Assembly: GCA_963691655.1 (NCBI GenBank)
Contig: OY829326.1
Span: 81,461,235-81,525,234 of the forward strand
Reading direction: 5' to 3'
DNA: 64,000 bases
Source: Toxonevra muliebris
Taxonomy: Eukaryota > Arthropoda > Insecta > Diptera > Pallopteridae
Translations under genes and position numbers: made by a program
The notes under the pieces: model-generated
What the model was told of the DNA's origin: nothing
What the model saw: the letters and a program-made list of their open reading frames with translations, nothing else
Databases searched by the model: none
Shown: piece after piece, positions 7,430-40,790 of the stretch
How positions within the stretch are numbered: position 1 is the stretch's first letter
How the letters are laid out: each line of letters starts with the position of its first letter

Positions 7430-8402
7430 AGAATCAGCAAAATATTTGGAAACGTTACAGTGGTTTATGCTCAAACATCGTAATTATTGTGATTTATTTA
7501 TTTTGTTTATCACATTCATTACTTGTGTACTTAAATCAATCTGTGCTTGACGTTTTCTATATTCCCTCATGTACAACGCCCTCTTATTTTGTTGTTCTTT
7601 TTCTATTTCTATTCAAACTACCATTTATGTAAAAATTCAAACAAAACACGATGGAAAAATCAACACGAATGAAAAAAAAAACACATAGCCCAACTATAGA
7701 GTTGACCAAATGTATTAAATTACAACGAAAAACTTGTGCAAACTTTTGGGATTGAATGAAATTACGTTCGTAACATTTCACTTAATTTTGAGAAGCTTCG
7801 CTTCAATAAATCAGCATTCGCTTTTCGAAGAAACTCAGGATAGTGATGCTTAACAAAGGTGTTATGAGTATTTTTAAAGTCATCATATCCCTGTATTTAA
7901 TATTGTCGGGTCTATGGTACTGTGAAGTAAAAAAGCAAATACAAAAAAAAAATGGATGTGTGCAAGGCACTCAAGATATTTGATGTGTAAACAGTTAAGC
8001 CAACTGAATGCCATGTACATAAGCTCACATATGTATAGCCATATATAGGGATTTGATGTATAATCTAAATGCTAGGTAAATATTTAATTCGAATTAAAAC
8101 AATTCTTTTATAAACTTAAAAATTTATTAGATATCATTATGTTTTATATATAATAGCCCAATTCACTATAAATTGCAAATGGTCTTGCATCATTGCAAAT
8201 TTTTATTCCATATCGCATATATTTGTTGTTGTGAATGCAAAAATATTTTGCAATTGCACCAAATCGTAGCTGCATTATTTTTCTTTTACTCAATACATCG
8301 GACACGATATGTTTGCATATACGCAGCTGTAATTGCATCTATTTTTCCGCGCTTCAAGTTTTTCTTCCTTGAAATTTTATTAGATTTGCAAAATTTACAT
8401 AA

Positions 8403-8478
8403 CGTCGCCTGAGAATTGATCTGGCGTATAGGTATATGAATTTGTACACACATGCGCCAAATCAATCCTCAGGCGACG
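8403..8478. repeat. 76-nt stable hairpin with 24-nt arms
   Basis: The arms 8403-8426 (starting CGTCGCCTGAG) and 8455-8478 (ending CTCAGGCGACG) pair at 22 of 24 positions around a loop of about 28 nt. It is markedly GC-richer than its surroundings. It could be a miniature inverted-repeat element or a microRNA-like precursor; the sequence alone does not decide. Confidence 0.65.
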
Positions 8479-9164
8479 ATAAGTGCTTTCCGCATTTAAC
8501 CTTAGAAAGGCAATAGGGGTGATTAGTCAGCCCACTACTTTTTAAAGGCACCGCAAAGAGATTTGCCTTAACTGCATTTAATAAAAATAAGAAACAATGT
8601 ATTTTTATTGAAGTAAATAAGTGATTTTATAATAAATAAGGTAAATGCACAAAGCAAAGTTTTTATAATGCCGTGGTTTGTATGTGAGTAAATTTATCGA
8701 AACATAAACAAACAAACTCCGCTCGTATTTTAATTTCTCGCTCTCTTCTTCTCTTCTCTTTGTTGTTTAGAGTAGCACAGTCATGCCGCGCAGTAGTGCG
8801 AGCGAGAGGGTAACTGGACGTTACAGTTATCTTACATCTTACGTTACAGTTATTCTTACATTTTACACATTTGAAATTTTGCCCATACCGTGAGCTAAAA
8901 TGTTTACACATAAAAAATCGTTATGTAGAATATTGTTACAAAAAAGAATACTATGCAAAAATCGGTAAGGAAAATCACGCAAAAACTGTCGTGTCTAAAA
9001 GCGGACTAATGAATACAAAGAAATTCATATTATACATAAGAATTGCATTGAGCAATGAAATAGTTAACATTACGATCACAAAGCTGAAAGCATCTGGAAG
9101 AAAAGATAATCAATAGTAAAAATTTCTATTCAACCGTTTCTGTTCCTTCTCTTTATAAAAGATT

Positions 9165-9360
9165 TGACGTTTGCTATTCTCCACTCAAAAACTTTAATGT
9201 ATGCAGAGGACGTCAAGCTGTTCCTTTCGCATAATTCATAATAAAAACCAGAAGTTACTACCATCCGATCTAAACAGCTTGGTACAATGGTGCAATATAA
9301 ATTTAATGATCTTGAACATATCATTTTCGGACCAAAAATTTTTAAAAAACTGTAAATCGA
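9165..9360 (+). pseudogene. Reverse transcriptase catalytic-region relic of a LINE
   Basis: Plus-strand reading gives LMYAEDVKLFLS around 9195-9230, a decayed form of the YADD-VKLF catalytic motif with the first Asp changed to Glu. After a frame change it continues SDLNSLVQWCNINLMILN, the usual downstream helix of LINE polymerases. Both pieces are short and the frame is broken, so it is an old dead fragment of a CR1/Jockey-like element. Confidence 0.65.
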
Positions 9361-10050
9361 TTTAAAAAAAAACTGTATATTTCGCGGTATCAATTTTTTC
9401 AATGAATAGGGAAAGCTATTTATCCATCATCTAAATCGTCTTCGTTCTCCATTTTCATATCTCCTTCTGTAGTTGTATTTAATTTGTGCTTTGAAGAAAT
9501 TTGGCGAAGCGATTCCGGCTTTGCTATGAGATATTTATAGAAATCAACGCATGGATATTACATTTGGCGACAAGAATCGCCACTTCTTTCAAAAGTATAC
9601 TCACAACGAGTTGCCATTGTTCTTTCAGACATTTTGCATTGCGATTGATAAATTTGAATTTCATAGCGCTAAAATTTTTATATTTTTTTTCTTAGTATAA
9701 ACGCGGTATTTTGGTAAAAAAAAAATAGTGGTATGCGGTTTTGGAGTTGAAAAAAAAGGTATAGTACCGCGAAAAACTTTGCCTTCTTACAGAATATTCA
9801 ATTGGAAATACTGTCTAAACTCATTTGGATTCCTTGGTTGACTAGGGAGTTGGACTCCAAGGACTCCAAATTTCGTTTTCATTTGCATATAAATGTATGC
9901 TTAAATAAATAAAATTAAAAAAAAAAATTAATTGATTAAAAACAAATTTTTGTTGGCTTCACCTTGGCTCAAAATATTTTTCTGGAAAAGGTGTACCTCG
10001 TAGGTTATTCCGATGTTTTGGGGCCCCTTATAATTTTTAATAAGAAACAT

Positions 10051-10130
10051 TTCATGATAGTTTTTTAGGAGACTATGAAAATTAAATCTAGAGGTTAATT
10101 TTCAAAGTCATGACTTAAGTTCATGTCAAT
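10051..10130 (-). repeat. Inverted 80-bp copy of part of the 486-bp unit
   Basis: The left arm beginning ttcatgatag is the perfect complement of 10215-10294, which ends ctatcatgaa. The loop between arms is 84 nt. Similarity stops exactly at both ends. Four nucleotides (gaac) separate it from the direct array. Confidence 0.95.
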
Positions 10131-10134
10131 GAAC

Positions 10135-10620
10135 TGCCCGTCTCTATATACATTGTTGTTGTGATGACTACATTTGTTCATTAAGCCTGTTTATATATAA
10201 CTTCAAATAACGAAATTGACATGAACTTAAGTCATGACTTTGAAAATTAACCTCTAGATTTAATTTTCATAGTCTCCTAAAAAACTATCATGAACTGATC
10301 GAATGGGGACCGTTCAGAAAAAATGACACCTAGAATCATTTTCTCACAAACACACACACTCTCCCATGTACTAGACTTTCAAATAACGAACTGTTATGCA
10401 GAATAGCTACAATGGGAAAAAAACAACAACATAAGTGTATAGAACGGTAGTGGTAGTTTCTTTCAATATCTCTATTCAGTGAAGATATTTGGAATCAAAT
10501 CCGTAATTCTGAGTTATGATTTCAAATATTAGTAGCTTATATAGGATATTGAAAGATTAAGAACTATCACTAAGATCACTGATGAGGAATTGTGGCGGAT
10601 TCCGAAACGGCCGTCTGATT
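10135..10620 (+). repeat. 486-bp tandem unit, copy 1
   Basis: It begins tgcccgtctc and ends ccgtctgatt. It includes a near-duplicate internal motif ttcaaataacgaa, seen twice per unit, and a full hammerhead at its 3' end. The start lies 5 nt past the ribozyme cleavage point, the position where a linearised self-cleaved RNA would begin if a few nucleotides were lost. Confidence 0.95.
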
Positions 10621-10621
10621 T
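10573..10621 (+). ncRNA. Hammerhead ribozyme, copy 1
   Basis: All conserved parts are present in order. Helix I is AGATCA (10573-10578) with TGATTT (10616-10621). The core is CTGATGA (10579-10585). Helix II is GGAAT/ATTCC with an 8-nt loop TGTGGCGG. GAAA follows (10604-10607). Helix III is ACG/CGT with only a 2-nt loop, and the cleavage triplet is GTC, so cutting is predicted between 10615 and 10616. Hammerheads self-cleave by transesterification to leave a 2',3'-cyclic phosphate. The palindrome ACGGCCGT in helix III suggests that two molecules, or tandem copies, pair to form the active dimer, as known for other short-helix-III hammerheads. Confidence 0.9.
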
Positions 10622-11106
10622 GCCCGTCTCTATATACATTGTTGTTGTGATGACTACATTTGTTCATTAAGCCTGTTTATATATAACTTCAAATAACGAA
10701 ATTGACATGAACTTAAGTCATGACTTTGAAAATTAACCTCTAGATTTAATTTTCATAGTCTCCTAAAAAACTATCATGAACTGATCGAATGGGGACCGTT
10801 CAGAAAAAATGACACCTAGAATCATTTTCTCACAAACACACACACTCTCCCATGTACTAGACTTTCAAATAACGAACTGTTATGCAGAATAGCTACAATG
10901 GGAAAAAAACAACAACATAAGTGTATAGAACGGTAGTGGTAGTTTCTTTCAATATCTCTATTCAGTGAAGATATTTGGAATCAAATCCGTAATTCTGAGT
11001 TATGATTTCAAATATTAGTAGCTTATATAGGATATTGAAAGATTAAGAACTATCACTAAGATCACTGATGAGGAATTGTGGCGGATTCCGAAACGGCCGT
11101 CTGATT
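10621..11106 (+). repeat. 486-bp tandem unit, copy 2
   Basis: Head-to-tail copy of the preceding unit with no difference that I could see. The near-identity of the copies means either a recent insertion or a single round of rolling or concatemeric copying. Confidence 0.95.
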
Positions 11107-11107
11107 T
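11059..11107 (+). ncRNA. Hammerhead ribozyme, copy 2
   Basis: Same motif as copy 1, exactly 486 nt downstream, with predicted cleavage between 11101 and 11102. Cutting at both sites would release a monomer RNA of 486 nt (10616-11101). Confidence 0.9.
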
Positions 11108-11178
11108 GCCCGTCTCTATATACATTGTTGTTGTGATGACTACATTTGTTCATTAAGCCTGTTTATATATAACTTCAA
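11107..11178 (+). repeat. Partial third copy of the 486-bp unit
   Basis: It matches the first 72 nt of the unit, then switches to flanking DNA at the aagaaacattt target repeat. Confidence 0.9.
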
Positions 11179-11319
11179 GAAACATTTTTTCCAAAGACAG
11201 TTTAATAGTTTTCTCAACGGTTTTTGTTTTATCGGCCATTTTTTTTAAAAAGGGGGCCTAAAACCTCATTTTCAAAAGGAAGGGTAAGAGATGCTGGAAA
11301 AGTATGAAAACAAAAATTG

Positions 11320-11560
11320 TTTATCTTTTTGTGCTTAGCAACTTTGCTTCAGACATCAAATTCGTATCTGTTGAAGTAAAGAATTTTTTTTAATAGCCTG
11401 TGAAGACCCCATTTTTCCGACTTCAGGTCCATATTGTTGGAGAACTAGATGGAGAAAAACTGAGGACGCAGTCGTGATTAACGACCCTAAATTACTATAA
11501 AACCGTTGGAAAATCTTGCGTATAAAATTTTTGTTGCACTGTGTAATCTGTAGCTGAATT
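11320..11560. repeat. Dispersed repeat (family also at about 53460-53640)
   Basis: Blocks such as catcaaattcgtatc and tttttccgacttcaggtcc recur in the same order near 53480-53560, and gcactgtgtaat recurs near 53625. No coding potential. An old interspersed repeat. Confidence 0.7.
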
Positions 11561-12364
11561 AAGACAACTATACATTTATGGTACCAGCAAAATTCGTTTT
11601 ACTAAAAAAATAGAATTTGTAATGTGTGCTAGTAATTCCACTAGATTTCAAGAGGAATAACTAATAGTTCAGTCATTATAAAGATAAAAAAACCTTTTTT
11701 TTTACTAATAAATGGTTAATCGTTGGAGATATCAAAAAATTATCTAGGACACAAAAAAAGTATCCAGTAATTTTTTCGTATATATCAGAGCTGTAAAAGA
11801 TTGCAGTCTTTTTCAGTTTGAAGTCAACAGTCTTTTTGTGAATGCGGAATTAAGACTTTGAAGTCACAAGTCATATTGAAGTCAATGACTTATCATTCAT
11901 TTTTGAAATCATTTTTTTGAAGTCATGAATGATCAGTTTCTTATTTGCAGTCCTAATCTGAACAAAGTATTAATTGACTTGTAGTCATTCATTCTGAAGT
12001 CATTTAAAGTGAATTTAAGTCACTTGAAGTCAATTGCAGCCATTTTAAGTCAATTGACTTCAGTTTATTTCAATGAAGTCAATTGACTTCACCGAAATAA
12101 ACTGAATTCATTGAAATAACTTGAAAGTCATTTGAGTTATTTTTCATAATTTTACACATTTTCATGTTCACACTTATTACGAATTATTTTTCTTGTTGCA
12201 AATATCCGCCCAAACCCAATAAGCTATATAACAAAGTGTAGTACACGTGAAACTAACATATGTAAACTAGTGTAATCAAAATGCAATGTTATTTGTGTTT
12301 TTAAAATTGTGCCGTTAAAACTTAATAAATACATTACACTATCGTCGGCAATTGAAATTTAGAA

Positions 12365-12792
12365 GAGAGTTTGGCACATGACGTATTTTTCGTGAGAAAG
12401 CGAGAATCGAAAATTCACCATGATGACCTTTTGTGAGTGTTAGTAAAAAATAAAGACACGCGAGTACATTCGTGAACGTGACATGATTTTCACGTGAGCA
12501 AGCTAGAGCGCGATTTAATTTTTATAATTCCCACATGAACATGTGTGAGTGCGATATAATTTTCACGTAAAAATACGTGAGCAATAATTTCTTTTGTTCA
12601 TGATGCCATTTTATTTGTATATGTGTGTACCTAAATTTACATATTTTAGAATAAAAAGACAGCGTGCGTAAGCATGCGTGAAATATTTGGAAAATATCAA
12701 CGTTCGTGAACATTCATGAATTTTTTAAAAATGTTAGCGTGCGTGAACATGCGTGAGCGTTAGTCAAAAAGTATTCACGCGCCCATCTCTAG
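12365..12792. repeat. Repeat rich in GTGAGCG/CGTGAAC motifs, nested in the hAT element
   Basis: Motifs of the form cgtgaacatgcgtgagcg recur irregularly across this block, which ends acgcgcccatctcta. It interrupts the GAAGTCA array of the surrounding element, so it probably inserted later. Edges and family are uncertain. Confidence 0.45.
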
Positions 12793-12891
12793 TAAAAAAT
12801 TTTGCACTACACTTTAAGATACAGCATTTTTGGTTGAGGCAGAGGTTTGTAAAAAAAAAATTATTGGCAGGTACATAGTCCTCAAAACCAG

Positions 12892-13135
12892 AGCTGGGAG
12901 GTAATGATTACTTTTGTAATATAATTACTCATGAAGTACCATTACTTAAAAGTACAATTTCTCCAATAGGCTTCAAAATTGTTTGAGCTATGCTCATTTC
13001 TTAATGCAGAGTATAATTAAGTCAACATGATGAACAACAAAGCTTTTATATATTTTCGGTTAAACACATGAAGAGCTTTTTTGTTTAATTAAATAATTAT
13101 ACTACTTATAAATACTGTATATTTTTTATCATTCA
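12892..13135. repeat. Second hAT-like end fragment, nested
   Basis: It starts CAGAGCTGGGAGGTAATG, a hAT-style terminus different from that of the host element. No matching opposite end was found, so it is a solo or truncated piece. Confidence 0.35.
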
Positions 13136-13529
13136 ATAATAGACTTCACTCAGTGAAGGTGAAGTCTCAATTGACTGCAAGACTTCATGGCTGGGACTTC
13201 AAACCAATTTTAAGTCATGACTGTGACTTCAAACCAATTTGAAGTCATGACTGCGACTTCAAGTATAATGTGAACTCATGTGAGTGATTGTGACTTATTT
13301 GCATTGAAGTCTCAAATTGATTGCTATAATCAATGAGCAGTCATTGACTTCAAAAAGACTGGTGACTTAATTTTTTAAAGTCATAAGTCTCAAATGAAAT
13401 CAAAGACTGTAAACAGAAAACGTAATTCATTTGCAGTGACTTCAATGAATGCAGCTCGAAATGACTGCAATCTTTTACAGCTCTGGTATATATCATAGTT
13501 TTCGAGATATTCAATATTTCTAAACTTTT

Positions 13530-13725
13530 TTTTAAAGAAATCACTTAAGCTTTTTTTGTGTGGTAGATAATTTTTTGGCTTCTCCAACGGTTAAGCAGTA
13601 ATTATTAAAAAAGTTTTTTTTCACCAAAGAGGGGCAGAACTGATTTTTGTGGTTTTTCCATCATCATACCCCCACTAACAATTACAAAAAAAAAATCTCA
13701 GATAAAAATTATTAAGCACTTTTGG
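13530..13725. repeat. Dispersed repeat (family also at 50360-50575)
   Basis: aaatcacttaagctttttt, cggttaa, catacccccactaacaatta and aaaatctcag recur in order at 50360-50560. The hAT element at 11786-13485 appears to sit beside or within this repeat. Confidence 0.7.
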
Positions 13726-13795
13726 TGGATTTTTTACTCTACCGACTGGACTATAAGCGCAAACATAAAAAAAGGCAAAAACTTGACTGCACACA

Positions 13796-13960
13796 CAGTG
13801 GCGGATACAAAGGTGGAGAGGGGGCATGGGGGAAATACCCTCACCCACAGTAATAACTTACTTATGTAAAATTTCTGCATATGTGCAGAATTATTTTTTG
13901 TTTCTGGTCTTCTCATCCCCCCTCCCCACTCCCCAAAAATACTTCCATAATCCGCCACTA
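13796..13960. mobile_element. Small hAT-like MITE, about 165 bp
   Basis: CAGTGGCGGAT at the left is mirrored by ATCCGCCACTA at the right, with GGGG-rich/CCCC-rich subterminal segments also inverted. The terminal base differs and no clean 8-bp duplication is seen, so the assignment is tentative. Confidence 0.5.
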
Positions 13961-14549
13961 TCACATATGTGTACGTTTCAGCGAAGATGTTATAGACATT
14001 AAGGCTTTTTCATTAACGCCATCTGAAATTGGAATTCATTGCCTAATTATTTACGATGTATTGTTAACGCTAAGGAAAATAAAAAAACCAATTACCTAAT
14101 ATAATTTTTTATAAGGCATTCCATAGAGATTAAGCTACACTTTATTCAGAAATACGATTATTATACAAAAGAGATTTTCTCATATGTACATTTTTTACAA
14201 ATAAAATAAAATAAATCGTGTATCATCAGGCTTCACATAAATAAATAAATAAATAAAAAATGCTTTGAACAGTATACCAGGAGGGAAGGGCAATCAGATT
14301 TGACATTGATTTCAATGCCTGATATGCACATACTTAGTGCATACTTTCTATTTCTACTATGCCTCGCTATGGCATATAATTTGAGTGTATGCCTAATATA
14401 AAAATTCGATTTGTAATTTATTACAATTGATATGAAATTTGATTACAAAGTGAAGTTTTTATTGAGTTTTATTTTTATGTGTTCACAAGAGCGAAATTGA
14501 GAAGTAAACGTGCCATTTTTATTCTTTATGTAATTGTAGATGTCATATC

Positions 14550-23300: not shown

Positions 23301-24995
23301 AACCAGTTGAAGAGAGTAGAGAGACAGGAAAGTTATGTGGGGATAAATGGGAAGAGGAAAGGTCTAGGGTCTCCCAACTTCTTTGTTTCACTGATGAGCC
23401 TTAGAAGCTCAGGAAGAGGGAGAGTATGGACATTATTCATACTCAATCATACTCATTATTCATCACTACCCAACAGCCTTAATCTGATTCTCGCGAACAC
23501 CGGACAGCTACAAAGATAATGTTCCGTAGTATCGTCGTCCTCAAGACACGATTGGCAAATTGGATCGGTGATGACGCCCATGTTAGTCATATGCTGACCG
23601 CATGTGTTGTGACCTGTGATGACACCCACCAGTAATCTCAGGTCCTTTCTTCTCAATTTGAGAAGAAATTGCGCTGATTTCCTGTTAGGTTGTCTCACTA
23701 AGCACTTTGCGGTTCTACAGGAGTCAAGCTGGGACCATCTTTCTCTATGGATAAAACCCACGAAATCGTTGATCCAATGCATGATCTCCCCAGAACTTAC
23801 TCCAAGAAATAGTTCCGGACCCCATGGTGTAATTGCAGAGCTTTCATTAGCTAGTTTATCAGCTAGTTCATTCCCTGCAATACCACAGTGTCCTGGAACC
23901 CATATAAGGCATAACTTGTTGTGTTTTGCAACACTATTTAGTTTTGCCTTACACTCGCTGACCAATTTTGAGGAGCTGACAGGGTTAGCAGGAGCCTTCA
24001 GTGCTGCTTGGCTATCACTACACATACCTATGCACTTCCCATTAGGAACGGTGTGTTAAAAATACCCCTTCCTTGCCGAGCCAAGGCTGGACATTAACAC
24101 AGAACATGAGATGTCGTTTCATCATCCTCCATACGGATATAACATTCTGTCTCATGTGACAGACCTAATTTACTTAGGGGCCAGATAGAAATCTACTATC
24201 CGTAATCTGAGATCCGTTTTATTTAAGTTCAGGGATTTGGTGAGAGTGAGAGAAGAAACAAGCTTCTTTGCCTGACTAAGGCCTTGAACGGAATGCCAAT
24301 AAGCCATTCTTCTCTCGCCCACGGCTCTATGAATGATTTGGAACTAGTGCAGCCGATTCCACAAAATAGATCGGTGCCTGAGCCTACAACGCGTGACTTT
24401 GTTATGAGTAGACAACTGCTGCAGACTGTCAAAACACTCCTTCACTAGCTTCGAAGTGAAGCACCATGATGAATATGCCTTGAGAGCCGCTTGGCTGTCA
24501 GAGACGATTATGATGTTAGCACCTTTTAGACCTTTATTAAGGTTATTTCTGGCGTTAAGTTGGAGCAAACTTGCAGCCTCAAGGCAGTAATCTTCTTTAT
24601 GAAGATGTGCAGAGGTGTAAGTCCCATCAACAGCTCAATCGCAGGAGTGGGTCAAGTTCGTATAGACCAACTAAATCTTTTATCGAGTATGACATCCAAG
24701 TATTTGATTTCGTCAGAACCAGTTTGTATCTTCTAGAGAAGGGAACAAAAATAGCTTTATTGGGGTTTATTGATATGTCCCCTTTGACGCAACAATCAGA
24801 AACCAGTTTGAGAGCTGATTTTATTACTTCTGTAATGGTTGAATCAAAGTTTCCGGAGGCAATGATAGCTAAATCATCTACATAGCCGATTGATTCGTAA
24901 CCATGATCACCTAGTTTAACCCTTGCGGTATTTTGATACCATATAGCATCGTTGAATCCGAATCCGAGGTCCGAAAAATACCAGCACGTCAAAAA
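23300..24995 (-). pseudogene. Dead non-LTR retrotransposon, RT to C-terminus (LOA/I/R1-like)
   Basis: Minus strand, high to low: a polymerase block with GYVDDLAIIASG (catalytic YVDD near 24874-24885) and INPNKAIFVPFSRR; RNase H starting IIVSDSQAALKAYSS near 24510; and a second, longer open frame 24025-23456 with SDSQAALKAPANPVSSSKL, IWVPGHCGIAGNELADKLAN, then a cysteine tail C-SCLEDDDTTEHYLCSCP. The RNase H start occurs twice (24510 and about 24015), so two truncated copies may be joined. Stops between blocks make it non-functional. YVDD with a downstream RNase H fits LOA/R1/I-group LINEs. Confidence 0.8.
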
Positions 24996-26258: not shown

Positions 26259-26527
26259 GTAAAAATCTTATATAGATTCTTAAGTTCTTTCGTTTTTGTA
26301 ACTACTTCATTTTTATCAGATTTATTTCTTATAAAGCTTATATAAATTAGTTTGTTTTCGTGTAGCATCTTCTGGTCTCTATTTTTTTAGTTATACTTAC
26401 GTACTGAAATGTAATTTAATATTATACATACACCATTTTAATTTCTTGATTTATAATTTTAATTCATGTGGTTTTACAAATATAGATGAAACTTGATTTA
26501 ATGGAAACTTCTGAATTTTCAATTTAG

Positions 26528-26592
26528 GAACGCTGACGGTGAATGTGAACGTATTACTTCTCAGTTTAGCATCGCCCGATGAAAGTAGTTTG
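26528..26592 (+). CDS. pHCl-1: pHCl-1-like channel, exon 5 (first beta strands)
   Basis: The acceptor aatttag ends at 26527 and the donor gtaatt begins at 26593. It reads TLTVNVNVLLLSLASPDESSL, the strand with the V-V-V alternation typical of the start of the Cys-loop ligand-binding domain. Phase 0 exit to the exon at 26662 across a 69-bp intron. Confidence 0.9.
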
Positions 26593-26661
26593 GTAATTAG
26601 TTCGTTCTTATCGCTATACATTTCTCCTCTTATACAAATATATCACAAATTTCTTTCACAG
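26593..26661 (+). other. 69-bp in-frame, stop-free intron
   Basis: It begins gtaatt and ends tttcacag. The length is a multiple of three and it contains no stop, so retention would insert 23 hydrophobic residues between SSL and KYE within the ligand-binding domain. Other family members run directly from SSL to KYE, as far as I recall, which favours removal. Confidence 0.75.
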
Positions 26662-26882
26662 AAATACGAAGTTGAATTCCTACTCAATCAGCAATGGAAC
26701 GATCCCCGTTTACAGTATGGCAATAAATCGCATTATGATTTCTTGAATGCATTGCATCATCACGACAGCATCTGGACACCGGATACGTATTTCATTATGC
26801 ATGGCGATTTTAAGGATCCCATCATACCAATGCATTTCGCTTTAAGAATTTACCGGAACGGGACCATTACGTACGCAATGAG
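26662..26882 (+). CDS. pHCl-1: pHCl-1-like channel, exon 6 (loops D, A and E region)
   Basis: It reads KYEVEFLLNQQWNDPRLQYG, then HYDFLNALHHHDSIWTPD, TYFIMHGDFKD, and FALRIYRNGTITYAMR. These are Cys-loop landmarks: QQW-D-RL (loop D), the invariant WTPD (loop A) and the R-NGT-Y strand (loop E). The family resemblance is to pH-sensitive chloride channel 1 rather than GluCl, Rdl or HisCl. It ends in phase 2 (AG) at donor gtgtgt (26883), and the next exon supplies the G of Arg. Confidence 0.93.
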
Positions 26883-29409
26883 GTGTGTATAAGTATCAAT
26901 GTCCCTTTTTTAATATTGAATATGTAAATTTCTGATACAGCGCACATTTCATTGGAATTGTGTATTTAAATTTGCCGCAATGGAAAAATGTGTTGAAAAC
27001 TGCGCACAAAAATGAATGGAACAATAAAAAATATGTAAATTTCTCTGCAAGTAAATGAAGTTGACAAAACTCAAATGTATCATACACACACACACACACA
27101 CACATACTTGCATATACTATACACATACTTTCACACAGAGAAATATGATGCTCTATGAATATTTTACTTGAATTTTTGCTTCTGCTGAAGCAGTAAGAAA
27201 ATGAATTTTATTTATAATAAAAATTTTAAATATGACGTTCATTGTGACGTGGAACTTCCAGCTTTACATGTCGGTATGTGTGTGCCTTAGAGGTTGAAAA
27301 TTACGTTTGTAGGAGGGAGAGGAGTATTTAATTTAAACTTTCAAAATATTCTCGAAACCATATTTTTTTTTCTGATCACTTTCCAGGGAATTTTTGTTCT
27401 GGTGAAGTACATAAATCGACATTATCAGTTTTGTTGCTGACTTTTGTTGTCATGTTTAATCCTTTCTATTGATCCTAAATTCTTACGGTCAAGAAATGGT
27501 TAAGTGAAAAATTAATACTAAAAGACCTTGTCCATCTATGAAAAATATCTAACAGAAATGTACTAAAAAAGTTCGTAAAAAATTCTCATTGACGGCCACA
27601 AGGTCGTTAAAAACTTTAGGGGTGTAAAACTTCTGTTTGGATGAAAAATTGTAATAAAAAATTGGAGTCAAAGAATACAAATCCGTGTAGATTTTGCGCT
27701 ACTTCCTCTGATTTTCTTATGGTCCCGAAAGGGTTAATCTATCGGCTGATCTATCGGTTAAACCTTTCGGGTCCATGGAGAAATAACATGGACTACTGTT
27801 TGATTTTCGGATCATTCCAATAGAAGCAATCTTCATCCCCTGCTATGATTTTATTAAACGAGCTTCTAAATTTTGTAAGAAAATATTGGAAAGTGTCATT
27901 TTTTGACCGTCATTCCTATCCACTTACCTATGCACTAAGCCACCGAAGTAGCTTTCTTACTATATCGTTTCGATATTTTTTATAGTAATTACCCACTATT
28001 TGGGAATCGAACCTAAGGCATCTGGGAATCCAGTCTAACACTCTAACCACAATCATTCAAAATTCGTTTAACCCATCAAACAAATGTCTTCGTATATTCC
28101 AGAGAATTTTGTAATATTCGTCACACTACCATGGCATTCAAACCCAGTTCATCAGCTTTTATTTCTTTGGTTAATCTTGGATCTTTGTCAATTTTAAAAT
28201 CCATGAAGATTACATTTTCACCGAGGGTTGATGATTTCGAGTGGTCTTAGCCAGGGACGTCGCACAGTGTCGCGTCTCCACATAACCTGTGGCCAAAAAT
28301 AGAGAACGTTGTTCAATCTCTATGAAACTTTTCAAAAGTAAAGTTCAAAACAAAAAATCGTAAAAATTTGCCCACTGCCACGCCCACCTCCCATACGAAT
28401 GAAACACTCATTTTGAAAAAACATACTAAATATAAACACCAGAATGCTCAAATTAAGTTTGTAAAATTATAGATGTAATAATATTTTTTATACGGAAAAT
28501 GGGCGGGCTGCCACTCCTACTTTAAAAAATACCTCTAACTTCCACATAAATGACGCCAAAAGTATAAAACATGGCACAAGATGTTATAAAACAACTTTTT
28601 AATCTTATACTAAGCGTAAACAGGCGACCACGCCCACTTTATAAAATAGCTATTGTTTATAAAATAATGATACATCATTATAATAACTATTAACCGCTCC
28701 ATTACAGCTTTAAATATCAGTTTTTTCTCTTATATACCGAAGTTTATTAATTTGCATTTACATAAATGCAGATATAAAATATAAGCTACTCGTTTTCGCT
28801 TTCTCAACCATAACTAAATGATAAATCGTTTAAAATTAAATTTCCAAAATCTATTCCCGGAATAAAAAAAAAGTGTAGAAAACACTTTCTTATTATGTTT
28901 CTTCAATTAAAATATAATTTAAAATATCTTCGGTAATTGTATGTTTCGTAGAATGAATTTTTCTATGAGCAGAAGTAAATGGCTCCGAAGAAAGTACATA
29001 GTTACTAATATATTCCTATTTGAGGATTCCCGAGAAGTTTTTCGTGTGTTATTTAAGCGAAACTTTCGAATTTCCTTAAGTCTTCCTTCAAGTCCATCTT
29101 CTGAAAGCATTCCAATTGGAATGCTAAAATATTTATAAAATAATCAATTTGGATTCTATGTTGGCCGTGGAATTTCTTACTTTATTCCTTGGGACCTTAC
29201 ATCAGCAATTTTATTTTTCTCTTTTTAATTTTTAGCTATTTGCTTGAAATTTAAAATCAAATATCGTAATATTATACCATTTCGTCTACCAACTTTGAAT
29301 TTTTCAAAAACTAATAAAATGCCACCAACTTAGCGATCTTTTGTTAGTCCCCTCGAATATTATCGTATTAATCTCTAAAAATATGTCTATAAATTTTCTC
29401 TTTTTCCAG
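26883..29409. other. Intron with microsatellite, small palindrome and SINE head
   Basis: (CA)n at 27083-27105. A 48-nt palindrome CCCGAAAGGGTTAA...TTAAACCTTTCGGG at 27724-27771. A tRNA-like head is listed separately. No further exon is needed, because the phases of the exons at 26882 and 29410 fit. Confidence 0.6.
27990..28052 (-). repeat. tRNA-derived SINE-like head
   Basis: The minus strand reads an A-box-like GTGGTTAGAGTGTTAGAC, a short paired arm, then a B-box-like GGTTCGATTCCC with the usual spacing. There is no acceptor-stem pairing, so it is not a functional tRNA gene but a tRNA-derived repeat. Confidence 0.55.
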
Positions 29410-32600: not shown

Positions 32601-35600
32601 CAGGTTTTCATCAACTAACGTTATATAGAAGGCACAACGCTCAATCGACAAATTCCGTCCTTTTTCCGTGAGGAAATTGAGAGGTTATTCCATGTCAAAT
32701 CGACCAATCCCACTCTCATATTCCCTACTTAATAAAAAATTTCTCTCATTGTGTTCGGGTCATTTTTTCTGCTCTCTGTCTTACATTATATATAAACAAG
32801 AAAATAATAAACATTTAAAAAACTTTTTATTTTGGCATATTCGCCATTATGATTTGCATAAAATGTAACTTGCACTGCTTAGCAGATGAAAACATTACAT
32901 GTGGTGTCTGCTATCTCAAAGTTCATATTAAGTGCTCTAAGCTAAACTCTAATATTTTAAATATAATAAAGATCAATAAAAATATTGTCTATAGATGCGA
33001 TGGTTGTACCAATCGCCCCGCTCCATTTTCGCAATCCAAAATAAATGAAGTCCGGAATAACTTGAATGTGCTAAGTGAATTTCTAAATTCTTTCAACAAC
33101 ACGCAGTCATCTATCCCAGCTGATTTGGGTAACACCTCAAATAATTATAATACAACAACTAATAATACACCAACTACTATAAACAAAATTTACACGCGCT
33201 CTAAAGCTAAGGTCATTGAACCTAATCGAATGCAATTGCTATCCAATGCTGGTCGCAAGAGCATAACATCTAACTCGCCTGCACTCGTTCACTCGTCAAA
33301 TAAAAACGGTAATAATAATGCCAGTGCTCTATCTATTGCTCGCTCTTCTCAACCGCTCTCGCGCAATTTAACGAAAGCTCCTGTCATTAAATCATGTTCG
33401 CAGCCTAATTCTACGCAGCCAAAAATAACTAACTCTGGCTCTTCAGCTACTATAGATAATGCTATGGATAATGATAGCGTTGACGCTGATATTGTCGTCA
33501 TTAATGATGACAGCGAAATTGGTGCTTGTATTGCTCTCTCACATGCCGAATCTGTTGCTATTGAATCTACCGTTGCTGATGCTAACGTTAGTTTACCTCT
33601 CTCTTATGCTGCTGCTGGTGCCTCTGCTGTTAAACATTCTTCTGATCTTGCTGTTGCTTCTCCGATCACTAATGGTGTAATAAGAAAACGAAACAAAAAC
33701 AATGCGATTGTTGTTGGGAGTAGTTCGAACAGTGAGCTTGGTGTTGCTGTTCGTTGGAAATGGCTCCATTTATCGTTTTTTAAGCCCTCCGTTTCTGAAG
33801 AAAACATAATTGATTATGTCTCGAAACATGCAGACATTGATGCTTCTCTAATTTTTTGCCGTACACTAATAAAGAGAGGTGTTGCTGCTGATTCTTTAAA
33901 AAGAGTAAGCTTTAAATTTGGCATCTCTTCGTCACATTACAACAAACTGCTGAACCCAGCACTATGGCCTGCTAATGTTAAGGTGTGCCCGTTTCTTTTT
34001 TTTTCAAAAGAAAGGTATTCCTTTATTGGATCCATAACGAATACAGCAATTAATACAATTGCTCAACCTTACTGTCAGTCTAATGGCCCGAGTAATAATA
34101 ATTCGGGTAATCATAAACAAATAAACAACCTAAAACTATACTATCACAACGTATCTGGAATGAGGACAAAACTGAAGACCATATACGCAGCTATTTCTCA
34201 GGCCGACTATGATATAATAATTCTCGTTGAAACATGGTTAAATATGGATTTTTTTGATGGTGAAATTTGTGATCTTAATTTATATCACGTCTATCGTAAG
34301 GATCGTGATGCTGTAACGACTGGCTGTAATAGAGGTGGTGGTGTTCTCATAGCTATCAATCGTGTGTTACAATCTTCGTTAATATCCCTGCATAACTCTG
34401 ATACTCTTTTGGACCAGCTTAGTGTATCAGTTTCAAGTCCACTAGGTATGCTAAAAATATGTGCTTCGTACATCCCGCCTAACAGCTCTGATGCCGTTTA
34501 TGCTGCTCATGTTGAAAATATAACCCACATTTCGGCTGATAGTGGTGAGAACTGTCATCTTGTTATACTTGGGGATTACAATTTAAATATGGTTAAGTGG
34601 TCGTACTTATCTAATGCTACAGTATTAACACCCAGTAATATAAATCATGCACATGAAATAAATTTTATTGACAGTTTGTTTTCTGCAGATTTAGTTCAAA
34701 TTAATTCGTTTCACAATAAGCTAAATAGATTACTTGACCTAATTTTCATTAATGATAATGTTAAGTATGAACTAAATAAATGTAGTTTTCCAATTTCATC
34801 CTCTGATATGCATCATGTCCCTTTAGTCTTAGAAATTGAATTTTATATTTATCCCAAACTTCCTCAAGATAATATCAGTTGTAATTTTAATTTCAATTTA
34901 TGTAATTTTGATGATATTAATTACTTGTTAAACAGTATTCAATGGGAGTACATGTTTTATCAAAACAATGTCTCTCACTGCTTTGAACTATTTCTTAAAA
35001 ATGTTTTTCAGATTTTTACTAAAAATGTTCCCTTTAAGAAACAAAAAGTTTATAAATTGCCCTGGTATACTGTTGGCCTAAAAAAACTTAAGAACCGTCG
35101 AAATAAATTTTATAAATTATATACAGCAACTAATAATGCCACTCATAAATCAAAATATGAATATTATTCACGTGAATTTAATTGTTTAGATAAATTTTTA
35201 TACAATCAATATATCATGCAATTTGAAAAATCAATTAAATTGGATCCAAAAACATTCTGGAATTTTGTGCAGAGCAAAAAAACCTGCTCCAGTATGCCTA
35301 GTTCTATGTTCTTGAATGATAAAGTATCATACTCTATCCATGATACTGTTAATCTTTTCTCTGATTATTTCCTGGCTAATTTTGATCCTCAAGTCGAAGT
35401 GGATGATTCTAATTTGTTGAATATTGTATCATCTGTTGATTTCGGTTCGTTAATACTAACAGATGCAGATGTTATAAATGGGATCATAAATCTTAAAAAT
35501 TCCTCTAAATTAGATATTGATGGTGTATCGCCATTGTTAATAAAAAAGTGTGCTGACTCTCTTGTTACGCCATTGAAACTTATCTTTAACAAATCACTCA

Positions 35601-37083
35601 GCACTGGTATTTTTATTGACAAATGGAAAGTTGCTTTAGTTTCGCCTGTATTAAAAAAAGGTAATAAGTGTAATATTTCTAATTATAGACCCATCTCTAA
35701 GCTCTCAACTATATCAAAACTTTTTGAAAGCATTGTCAAAGACAAAGTATTTTTTGCAGTAAAAAGATTGATCTCTCCGAATCAACATGGTTTCGTGTTA
35801 GGTCGCTCAACTGTAACCAATCTTGCAGTTTTCACAAAATATTGTATCACTTCATTTGAATCAGGCTGCCAAGTTGACACTATATACACTGACTTCTCGA
35901 AAGCCTTTGACAAAGTTTCGCATAGTATTCTGATTTCTAAGCTGTTAAAAATGGGTTTCCATTCTGCAATGGATCAAATCATACCTTCATCAAAGATGCT
36001 GCTATGTATTGATTGATGGAGTAAGGTCAAAGTCTTTCATAGCAACATCTGGTGTCCCCCAGGGTAGTATACTTGGTCCCTTACTATTCATATTATTTAT
36101 TAATGACGTGGGGGGTTGTTTCTCTAGAGTAAATTATCTTTTATATGCTGACGACTTGAAATTATATCTTGCCATTAGAAATTTATCGGACATTAACATC
36201 TTACAATCTGAACTCAATAATTTTGTTAATTGGTGTACAGCCAATCATTTACATCTTAATTATACTAAATGTTCGCATATTACTTTCTCTAGACTGCGCA
36301 ACCCAATCTCATCCTCATTTAGTATTGCTAATAACTGTCTCAATTCGCTAAAGGAAATATTGGATCTTGGAGTTATTTTTGACTCTTGCCTTTCATTTGT
36401 GCAGCATCTCAATTACATTATTCCAAAAGCTTACTCCGTTATGGCATTTGTTCGTCGAAATAGTTCTGAGTTCAAGGACCCATATACACATAAGTTGTTA
36501 TATAGTTCTTTTGTCCGCTCAAAGCTAGAATATGCAGCATTTATTTGGAACCCGTTCTATGCTGTACATTCCAACCGTCTCGAGCGTATTCAAAAAATTT
36601 TCATTAAATACGCTTTGCGATCCCTAAACTTTGTGGAACCACTTCCATCCTATAATGCGCGATGCTTGCTTTTGAGCTTAAAATCGCTTGAAACTAGAAG
36701 AGCAACTCTCTCATTAATGTTTGTATATGACATTATCTGTGGCAATATTGACTGCTCGTATTTATTAGAATTGATTACTTTTAAAGTACCTGCGCGGAAT
36801 TTGCGTCTATGTCATACATTTAACGTAAATCTCCACAAAGCTAATTATGCCTCAAATGAACCCATTACCAGGGCTTTAACGATATATAATAGAATCGCTG
36901 AAGAACATTTTTTAGATTTTTCAATTGCAAAAAAAAGTTTTAAAATGCTTCTCATAGAAACTATCTAGCATTAAGTCTGTATTATTGTATAAATTTGCAC
37001 TTCAATTTATTATTATTAGTTGAATTGTTATACCTAGTCTGTAAGGATGTAAATTCCATAGACTAAATAAATAAATAAATAAT
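32600..37083 (+). mobile_element. CR1-like LINE, near full length
   Basis: One plus-strand frame of 1055 codons, then a frame change and 319 more codons, followed by a short 3' UTR that ends in an (AAAT)n tail at 37065-37083. Endonuclease, polymerase and PHD-type ORF1 regions are all present, so it is essentially complete at the protein level. The exact 5' boundary and any target duplication were not determined; CR1-group elements often lack one. It lies in the intron between the Cys-loop exon and the exon at 38137, in the same orientation as the host gene. Confidence 0.85.
32849..36968 (+). pseudogene. LINE polyprotein: PHD finger, ORF1 core, endonuclease, reverse transcriptase (one frameshift)
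   Basis: Residues 3-53 form a PHD-like zinc finger (CIKC, CGVC, H-KC, CDGC). Residues 60-275 are Ser/Asn/Ala-rich. A region at about 300-395 (RWKWLHLSFF to WPANVKVCPF) is the conserved C-terminal part of CR1-type ORF1 proteins. The apurinic-type endonuclease begins at about 428 with YYHNVSGM, then VETWL, GDYN (near 574) and SDMHH (near 653). The polymerase starts near 880, with YRPIS and DFSKAFDKV near 1014. A frame change near 35966-35972 sends the first frame to a stop at 36016. The other frame holds SGVPQGSILGPLLF and the catalytic YADD (36144-36155), and ends at 36968. Only one lesion in about 1,370 codons means a young copy. ORF1 and ORF2 being in one frame is unusual. Confidence 0.9.
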
Positions 37084-39454: not shown

Positions 39455-40535
39455 TAGTGTTGATTCGATACCCACATAATATCGATACTTTTACTCATTG
39501 CTTGTATCGAATAAAAGTATAAATGCCACCGAAAATATCGGAAAAAAATATCGAGTATGTACTTGTATCGAATACTCGTTTACTCAAAACGAAATTGGCG
39601 TCAGGCACCTTATACTTCATTTCTCTGATCACTATGCCGTACTCAGTTTTTCGCCTTTACGTCATGCTTTTAAGATATTTTAACTTGAAACATGTTAATA
39701 ATATAGAACTGCCTGTCGTAAAAGAAAAGTTGGAATTTGTTGAGTAGTGTTAACTTATGTATATAATATTTATTATGTTTAGATGCAAATCGCTAGAAAA
39801 TTTATTGTAAATATTTTATTTTAATGAAAAGATTTCAATATACATACATTATATTCTCCATGGGCGGCAATATTTTCTAGGACTTCAATAATGTACTGCA
39901 ATATTTTCCTACATTGGAATATTACAATATGAACTGAAATATTTTGAATATGCAGTAGCATTTGAAATACATTAACTGTGTTTTACTCGCCACTTGCTTC
40001 TAGTTATGTATAACTATCAGCGATAATTTTATGGGAAAACAACAAAAAAGCCACAGAGATAACTCGCATAATTATGGCTGTTATGTATACTTAAAAAGTA
40101 GTTTAGCTACATCAAATTCTATTGTGAATTGCCAATAGTGAAAGGAGAAGCATGACAGTTTGCAAAAAAAAAAAACAAAAAAAGAAAAGTTTCGAAATGG
40201 CTGCCGGCGAAAATAAGTTAAAATCATCATTAAATATTATTATAAAGGGTAAAAACTAAAAATAATGCCCGCGATTAATCGCAATGACTGGGATAAAAAG
40301 GTTTCACCTCTAGCTGCTGAGCAGTTCCATTGTAAATAACAATATTATGAAGAAGAGACTTAACAACTTGCAATACGACTCACAATCTTAATATTGTACA
40401 GCAATATTTCAGTTTTATAAATCAAAGTTTTCCCAAAATATGGAGTATCCGACACTGGCCTTTTTTTTCGATACCAAGTAAAATACTTATGGCATGGCAT
40501 CGAGTAAAAAAAGTACTTGAATCGAATCACCACTA
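39455..40535. mobile_element. DNA element with TAGTG...CACTA ends (1.08 kb, hAT-like)
   Basis: The left end TAGTGTTGATTCGATAC and the right end GAATCGAATCACCACTA are inverted with a few mismatches. The flanks acttaggg (39447-39454) and acttagga (40536-40543) match at 7 of 8 positions. The interior is closely similar to 20130-21380. No transposase. An 8-bp duplication suggests hAT, but the TAG start is atypical. Confidence 0.65.
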
Positions 40536-40790
40536 ACTTAGGAATCGAAAACCCATTACTGATAGTTTAAAGCATAGTATTTGAATTGAATGAACAGTAT
40601 CGAGTATTAATTGTATTTACTTGTATCGAATCATCACTAACTTAAGGCCGAAAACCCATTATTGATGATTTAAAGCATAGTACTTGAATCGAATGGAAAG
40701 TATCGAGTATTTACTCGTATTTACTTGTATCGAATCATCACTAACTTAAGGCCGAAAACCCATTTTTGATAGTTTAAAGCATATACTTGC
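40521..40790. repeat. 104-bp tandem repeat built from the element's right end
   Basis: atcgaatcatcactaactta recurs at 40521, 40625 and 40729, a constant 104-bp period. The last copy breaks off near 40786. The first copy overlaps the right terminus of the element at 39455-40535, so the array seems to have grown from a transposon end plus flanking DNA. Confidence 0.85.

Follow-up and report, generated by a model that had tools for sequence, protein, structure and literature searches.

A retrozyme family with Penelope-type hammerheads and Penelope-style insertion marks in the fly Toxonevra muliebris

The insert and its two hammerheads

The window analysed in this study is a 64-kb stretch of fly DNA and carries an insert of about 1.1 kb at 10053-11177. 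Two 11-bp target-site duplications flank the insert, with AAGAAACATTT at 10042-10052 repeated exactly at 11178-11188. A short inverted head comes first (10053-10130, minus strand). These 78 bp repeat unit positions 86-168 in inverted orientation; the match proper covers 10048-10130 (98.8% over 83 bp), its first 5 bases being common to the duplication. The head is followed by 2.15 perfect forward units of 486 bp with two type I hammerheads, all on the plus strand. The first unit is truncated at its 5' side (10135-10615, unit positions 6-486), the second is complete and lies between both expected cut sites (10616-11101), and the last is a 76-nt partial, a 3' tail of unit positions 1-76 at 11102-11177. 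TRF reported 10135-11178 with period 486, 2.1 copies and 100% matches, and the perfect run in the 486 register extends over 558 positions starting at 10135. The original prediction had placed two head-to-tail 486-bp units between 10042 and 11187. The perfect tandem stands, but it comprises 2.15 units plus the inverted head and not two units alone; the limits given practically coincide with the outer borders of the duplications, of which the right one reaches 11188.

An exon that encodes a neurotransmitter-gated channel ligand-binding domain (Pfam PF02931, E 1.1e-13) is located at 26515-26892 on the plus strand, about 15 kb downstream of the insert. At 32819-36968 (plus strand), two stop-free stretches that overlap in different frames encode the endonuclease and reverse transcriptase domains of a LINE-type element, and a remnant of another LINE with RNase H and zf-RVT domains was found at 23456-24055 (minus strand). 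Long near-perfect hairpins at 8396-8485 and 12046-12122, with below-threshold matches to miRNA families, are possibly small inverted-repeat elements. A further tandem repeat of 104 bp (2.7 copies, 88%) is present at 40514-40789.

The unit is non-coding, as had been proposed: it contains no reading frame, and the longest stop-free stretch in the six circular frames is 52 codons. A coding circle, suggested by the divisibility of 486 by 3, was ruled out by the 9-17 stops per circle in each of the six frames, and also by the existence of 484, 485 and 487-nt units. The 486-nt unit as a whole is strongly self-paired (z -5.71 against 100 shuffles). The GC content over 10001-12000 is 0.32, in line with the low GC (<50%) of retrozymes.

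Hammerhead 1 is located at 10573-10621 and hammerhead 2 at 11059-11107. Each of them is composed of CTGATGA (at 10579 and 11065), helix II GGAATT/GATTCC, GAA, ACGGCCGT and C, with a GTC cleavage site and a 6-bp helix I that closes across the cut. Helix II is 6 bp long and its last pair is G.U. The expected cut points follow from the motif positions and are those first proposed, 10615/10616 and 11101/11102. Screening both strands of the 64 kb with the rule set yielded these two hammerheads only, compared with a mean of 0.0 matches in 300 first-order Markov windows at each of four strictness settings, which corroborates the claim of two rule-satisfying motifs. A type I hammerhead per unit of a short tandem repeat, as in retrozymes, is thus found by the rule set, and Rfam made no call. 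The family-model search proposed with the original prediction came out negative: over 8000-14000, none of the Rfam hammerhead families gave a match at E<=1. Rfam also offered small-RNA labels such as MIR4372 and SNORD24, which were dropped, as all 12 matches fell below their gathering scores. The lowest-energy fold of the 54-nt stretch retains helix II and not the whole hammerhead (z -0.43), and a cofold of two motifs was not in the hammerhead state; energy folding lent the hammerhead no support.

Copies of the unit and their ends

The genome, 491 Mb in 96 contigs, was searched for further copies. The unit search reported 153 matches, with the best 40 of 1662 candidates scored; the full-length matches listed were 95-100% identical, nearly all of them 99-100%. 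A search with unit positions 1-168 gave 100% identity for all of the best 40 of 1155 candidates. When up to 3 mismatches were allowed, a 41-nt hammerhead pattern had at least 1548 matches and 0 in the control, the number being a lower bound as it was reported identically in both strand columns. The 100 pattern places listed are all exact, come from the first 32.3 Mb of contig C1 and form 75 short scattered loci; 65 of these hold a single exact hammerhead and the other 10 hold several. The original prediction had made its case depend on other copies in the species, and these are abundant. One exact 30-mer of the unit had 0 matches in viral and 0 in prokaryote contigs, as expected for an insect element. 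Unit length is 483-487 nt, up to 499, outside the range reported for retrozymes (~170-400 nt, 150-450 bp repeats); that range represents other species' figures and no rule, and the unit is therefore still filed as a retrozyme.

The 40 scored candidates represent 40 loci, of which 26 were read, the window included, giving 27 elements. The 3' ends of the main segments fall at unit positions 76-86 or 150-168, counted in nt past the cut site, in 25 of the 27 (the exceptions end at 64 in L052 and at 443 in L003). In the window, end mapping places these two zones at 10691-10701 and 10765-10783 on the plus strand, where reverse transcription may start, and the 3' tail of the insert stops in the first of them. 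The 5' ends scatter, with 1 of 36 inside the two zones. Segments on the opposite strand, arranged head to head, occur in nine of the 27 elements, and in seven of the nine their outer ends lie within the same zones (exceptions: 68 in L045, and 411 in L008, next to a run of Ns). As the zones were defined with the main ends already in view, the binomial figure for the main ends is descriptive only; the opposite-strand heads provide the fairer test (tail 1.1e-7). Exact duplications of 7-14 bp were found at 14 of the 27 elements and of 5-6 bp at four, while none of at least 5 bp was found at nine. The duplication score exceeded the highest shifted control (6.7) in 10 of 27. Such numerous, scattered copies, some of them with target-site duplications, accord with what is seen in retrozymes.

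A retroelement with hammerheads, as originally proposed, is the best reading of these dispersed near-identical copies with partial duplications, defined 3' ends and no reading frame. Satellite DNA amplified by unequal exchange, on which the hammerhead would be decorative, would likewise consist of tandem units. Dolichopoda pDo500, a cave-cricket satellite of roughly 500 bp, bears a hammerhead and was proposed to act in double-hammerhead form (PMC2837043, in the portion accessible). However, the loci of the unit are short and scattered, most with a single exact hammerhead, and dispersed copies flanked by duplications, together with the 3'-end zones, strain the satellite explanation so far that we find it barely credible. 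The accessible portion of PMC2837043 treats pDo500 as satellite DNA, and insertion marks were not seen described there.

Another explanation is that a LINE reverse transcriptase mobilises the unit in the manner of a SINE, with the hammerhead as a passenger. LINE-type reverse transcriptases are present in the genome, such as that at 32819-36968, and LINEs also produce 5' truncation, inversion and duplications. This origin is nevertheless improbable: the 3' ends lie at two internal zones instead of one terminal end, the opposite-strand heads use the same zones, and a simple scan found no Pol III box motif.

Divergent copies were informative on the hammerhead itself. L029, a copy 74% alike, was found beside a weak GIY-YIG candidate and thus was not chosen for its hammerhead. 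Its core and helix I are changed at 0 of 21 positions against 62 of 216 elsewhere (gaps in the copy included; Fisher p 0.0015). In helices II and III and the loop, 8 of 26 positions are changed, including an exchange of T-A to C-G, and helix III has turned from ACGGCCGT into ACGATCGT, again a palindrome. A pattern search with both middle bases of helix III changed found 228+255 places and 0 in the control. All 14 of those with letters listed have ACGATCGT, and each helix II pair is kept in 11-14 of the 14; the pattern fixed the neighbouring bases and the copies share ancestry, so that they count as few events.

Penelope-like elements in the same genome

A GIY-YIG search of the genome gave 13 matches, seven of them over the cut-off, and one Penelope-like element (PLE) protein as query gave 68 matches with the best 59 of 546 candidates scored. 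Long stop-free PLE frames belong to three families, PLE-A (L026, 758 aa), PLE-B (866 aa) and PLE-D (859 aa). RVT_1 is over the cut-off in L026, and GIY-YIG reaches 20.8 bits, just below its 22.6. Three PLE-B frames of 866 aa and equal score (C3:82087350, C4:32220057 and C60:40584) are perhaps recently active.

PLE-A, PLE-B and PLE-D each possess their own minimal hammerhead with a palindromic helix III (ACGCGT, ACGT and ATAT), and helix III is palindromic in all five hammerheads compared. This suggests action as dimers, by which multimers would be cut and circles would not, and the hammerheads of the unit are probably dimeric as judged from their sequence. PLE hammerheads were reportedly described by Lunse in 2017 as cleaving as dimers.

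The PLEs also end internally. Between two PLE-A copies compared, one ends 84 nt past its own cut and the other (inverted head) 97 nt. One PLE-B copy ends 113 nt past its own cut, its inverted head ends at 77 nt, and it carries a 12-bp duplication seen by eye. According to the accessible portion of PMC11167929, the lizard PLE PAc, when purified, initiates copying internally on the RNA. The start is 111-118 nt into the ORF and the hammerhead cut 26 nt in, which by subtraction puts the start at ~85-92 nt past the cut; both target strands were cut and extended in vitro. In Adineta (PMC3846280, likewise in part), Penelope insertions have a 5' pLTR in inverted orientation and duplications of 8-10 bp, with or without a 31-bp tail, and a foreign gene was apparently mobilised in trans by one of the families. 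As far as these two accounts go, the unit resembles PLEs in that helix III of its hammerhead is a palindrome, the 3' ends lie internally beyond the cut, inverted copies occur at the 5' side, and the duplications are of similar size. Its copies look PLE-inserted as far as the genomic record indicates. It differs from PLEs in its lack of an ORF, its seamless unit tandems and the lack of a match to the three local families compared. An autonomous PLE has an ORF with reverse transcriptase and GIY-YIG, and the unit without ORF is thus not one.

The unit was also considered as the pLTR of a PLE, as it lies just downstream of a GIY-YIG ORF at L011/L024. This was rejected: that PLE has a different hammerhead of its own and a tail, both of which come before the unit, and no sequence in common with the unit was found in the pLTR regions of the three families PLE-A, PLE-B and PLE-D (best E 0.33). 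The broader proposal is that an autonomous PLE outside the sample gave rise to the unit, an ORF-less derivative representing its pLTR, with tandems from multimeric linear transcripts and a hammerhead that need not act. The PLE-style anatomy of the copies would suit it, the pLTR comparison covered the three families only with 59 of 546 PLE candidates scored, and insertion by PAc in vitro did not need the hammerhead, which also speaks against the cycle proposed below (PMC11167929, accessible portion). That study found no RNA reads with an end at the PAc cut. We hold this derivation to be unlikely, since no sequence is common to the unit and the families compared, and the sameness of units within arrays and the differences between arrays, described below, are easier to obtain from one circle.

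Sameness of units and the proposed cycle

Variants are uniform within arrays. Nine sites are variable in at least two elements, and 3 of the 215 element-site pairs with at least two units are mixed, compared with a mean of 49.2 (38-60) in 2000 shuffles. Two of the three mixed pairs lie within ~20 nt of the element end, and the third (site 288, L035) is internal. Among the element-private variants, three are present in all covering units and 32 are not; 19 of the latter lie within 18 nt of an end, and the 13 internal ones are as later mutation or copying error would give. Seven of ten multi-hammerhead clusters have at least two same-strand spacings, which are constant in six (483, 484, 485 or 486) and 486 plus 487 in one. 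The search with unit 1-168 gave two further arrays with non-constant spacings (487, 487, 488 and 499, 499, 487). In the latter, L057, three variants are common to the three complete units and a 12-nt A-rich insert is missing from the last, by either later slippage or template change. Arrays that are uniform in themselves yet differ from one another would be expected if each had been copied from one circular RNA by a rolling-circle mechanism; a homogeneous source array, copied as a linear multimer, could also account for them.

We classify the unit as a family of animal non-LTR retrozymes that has hammerheads of the PLE type and insertion marks in the style of PLEs, on the basis of what is observed: motif, tandem, dispersal, end zones, heads, duplications and unit sameness. 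We regard a non-coding, non-autonomous retrozyme moved by PLE machinery as the probable identity. For transcription, cleavage, circularity and the enzyme, we infer the following cycle. Read-through transcription of a copy with at least two hammerheads would be followed by pairing of two hammerheads via the palindromic helix III and cutting at GUC, giving 486-nt monomers. A host ligase would close the monomer, and a circle with a single hammerhead would resist re-cutting. A PLE reverse transcriptase with GIY-YIG endonuclease would then initiate internally on the RNA, ~80 or 160 nt beyond the cut, in many cases from both target strands, and would go round the circle more than once. After repair, the product would be a tandem array truncated at its 5' side, frequently with an inverted head and a short duplication. 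We lean towards the view that the copies record their mover, a PLE reverse transcriptase that initiates at fixed distances beyond the cut, works from both strands of the target and rolls around one and the same circular RNA, each array being the DNA print of one circle.

Retrozymes and PLE hammerheads are both already known, and PLEs have been proposed as movers. Metazoan non-LTR retrozymes, with insects among the hosts, were described by Cervera and de la Pena in 2020 (PMC7229834), who proposed PLEs as likely movers. In the accessible portions of PMC7761336 and PMC7229834, the animal repeats hold no motif pointing to a partner and the mover was left open in 2020, with PLEs as likely candidates. 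According to the same portions, the unit is like metazoan retrozymes in its non-coding tandems, type I hammerheads, low GC, duplications where present and strongly self-paired monomer. It is unlike them (~170-400 nt) in its 486 nt and in a helix III that is short and palindromic as in PLEs, and the two 3'-end zones and head-to-head inverted heads were not seen described for them there. Circular RNA has been shown for metazoan retrozymes, whereas here it is presumed from genomic DNA. Plant LTR retrozymes, in the available text of PMC4918200 and PMC7229834, are also non-autonomous and hammerhead-flanked with a circular RNA intermediate, which is presumed for the unit; their type III hammerheads, LTRs and 4-bp duplications are all absent from it. 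Integration marks that tie a retrozyme to PLE machinery, and a within-array test of a circular template, were not found in the open-licence literature searched. With at least 1548 hammerhead matches, two 3'-end zones and intact-looking PLE frames in one genome, the question of the retrozyme mover becomes directly testable, and a route to reading circular RNA templates from genomic DNA alone is suggested.

An old copy of the unit was also noted in L026 at ~9107-9341 in PLE orientation, where the hammerhead core is missing and both sides remain.
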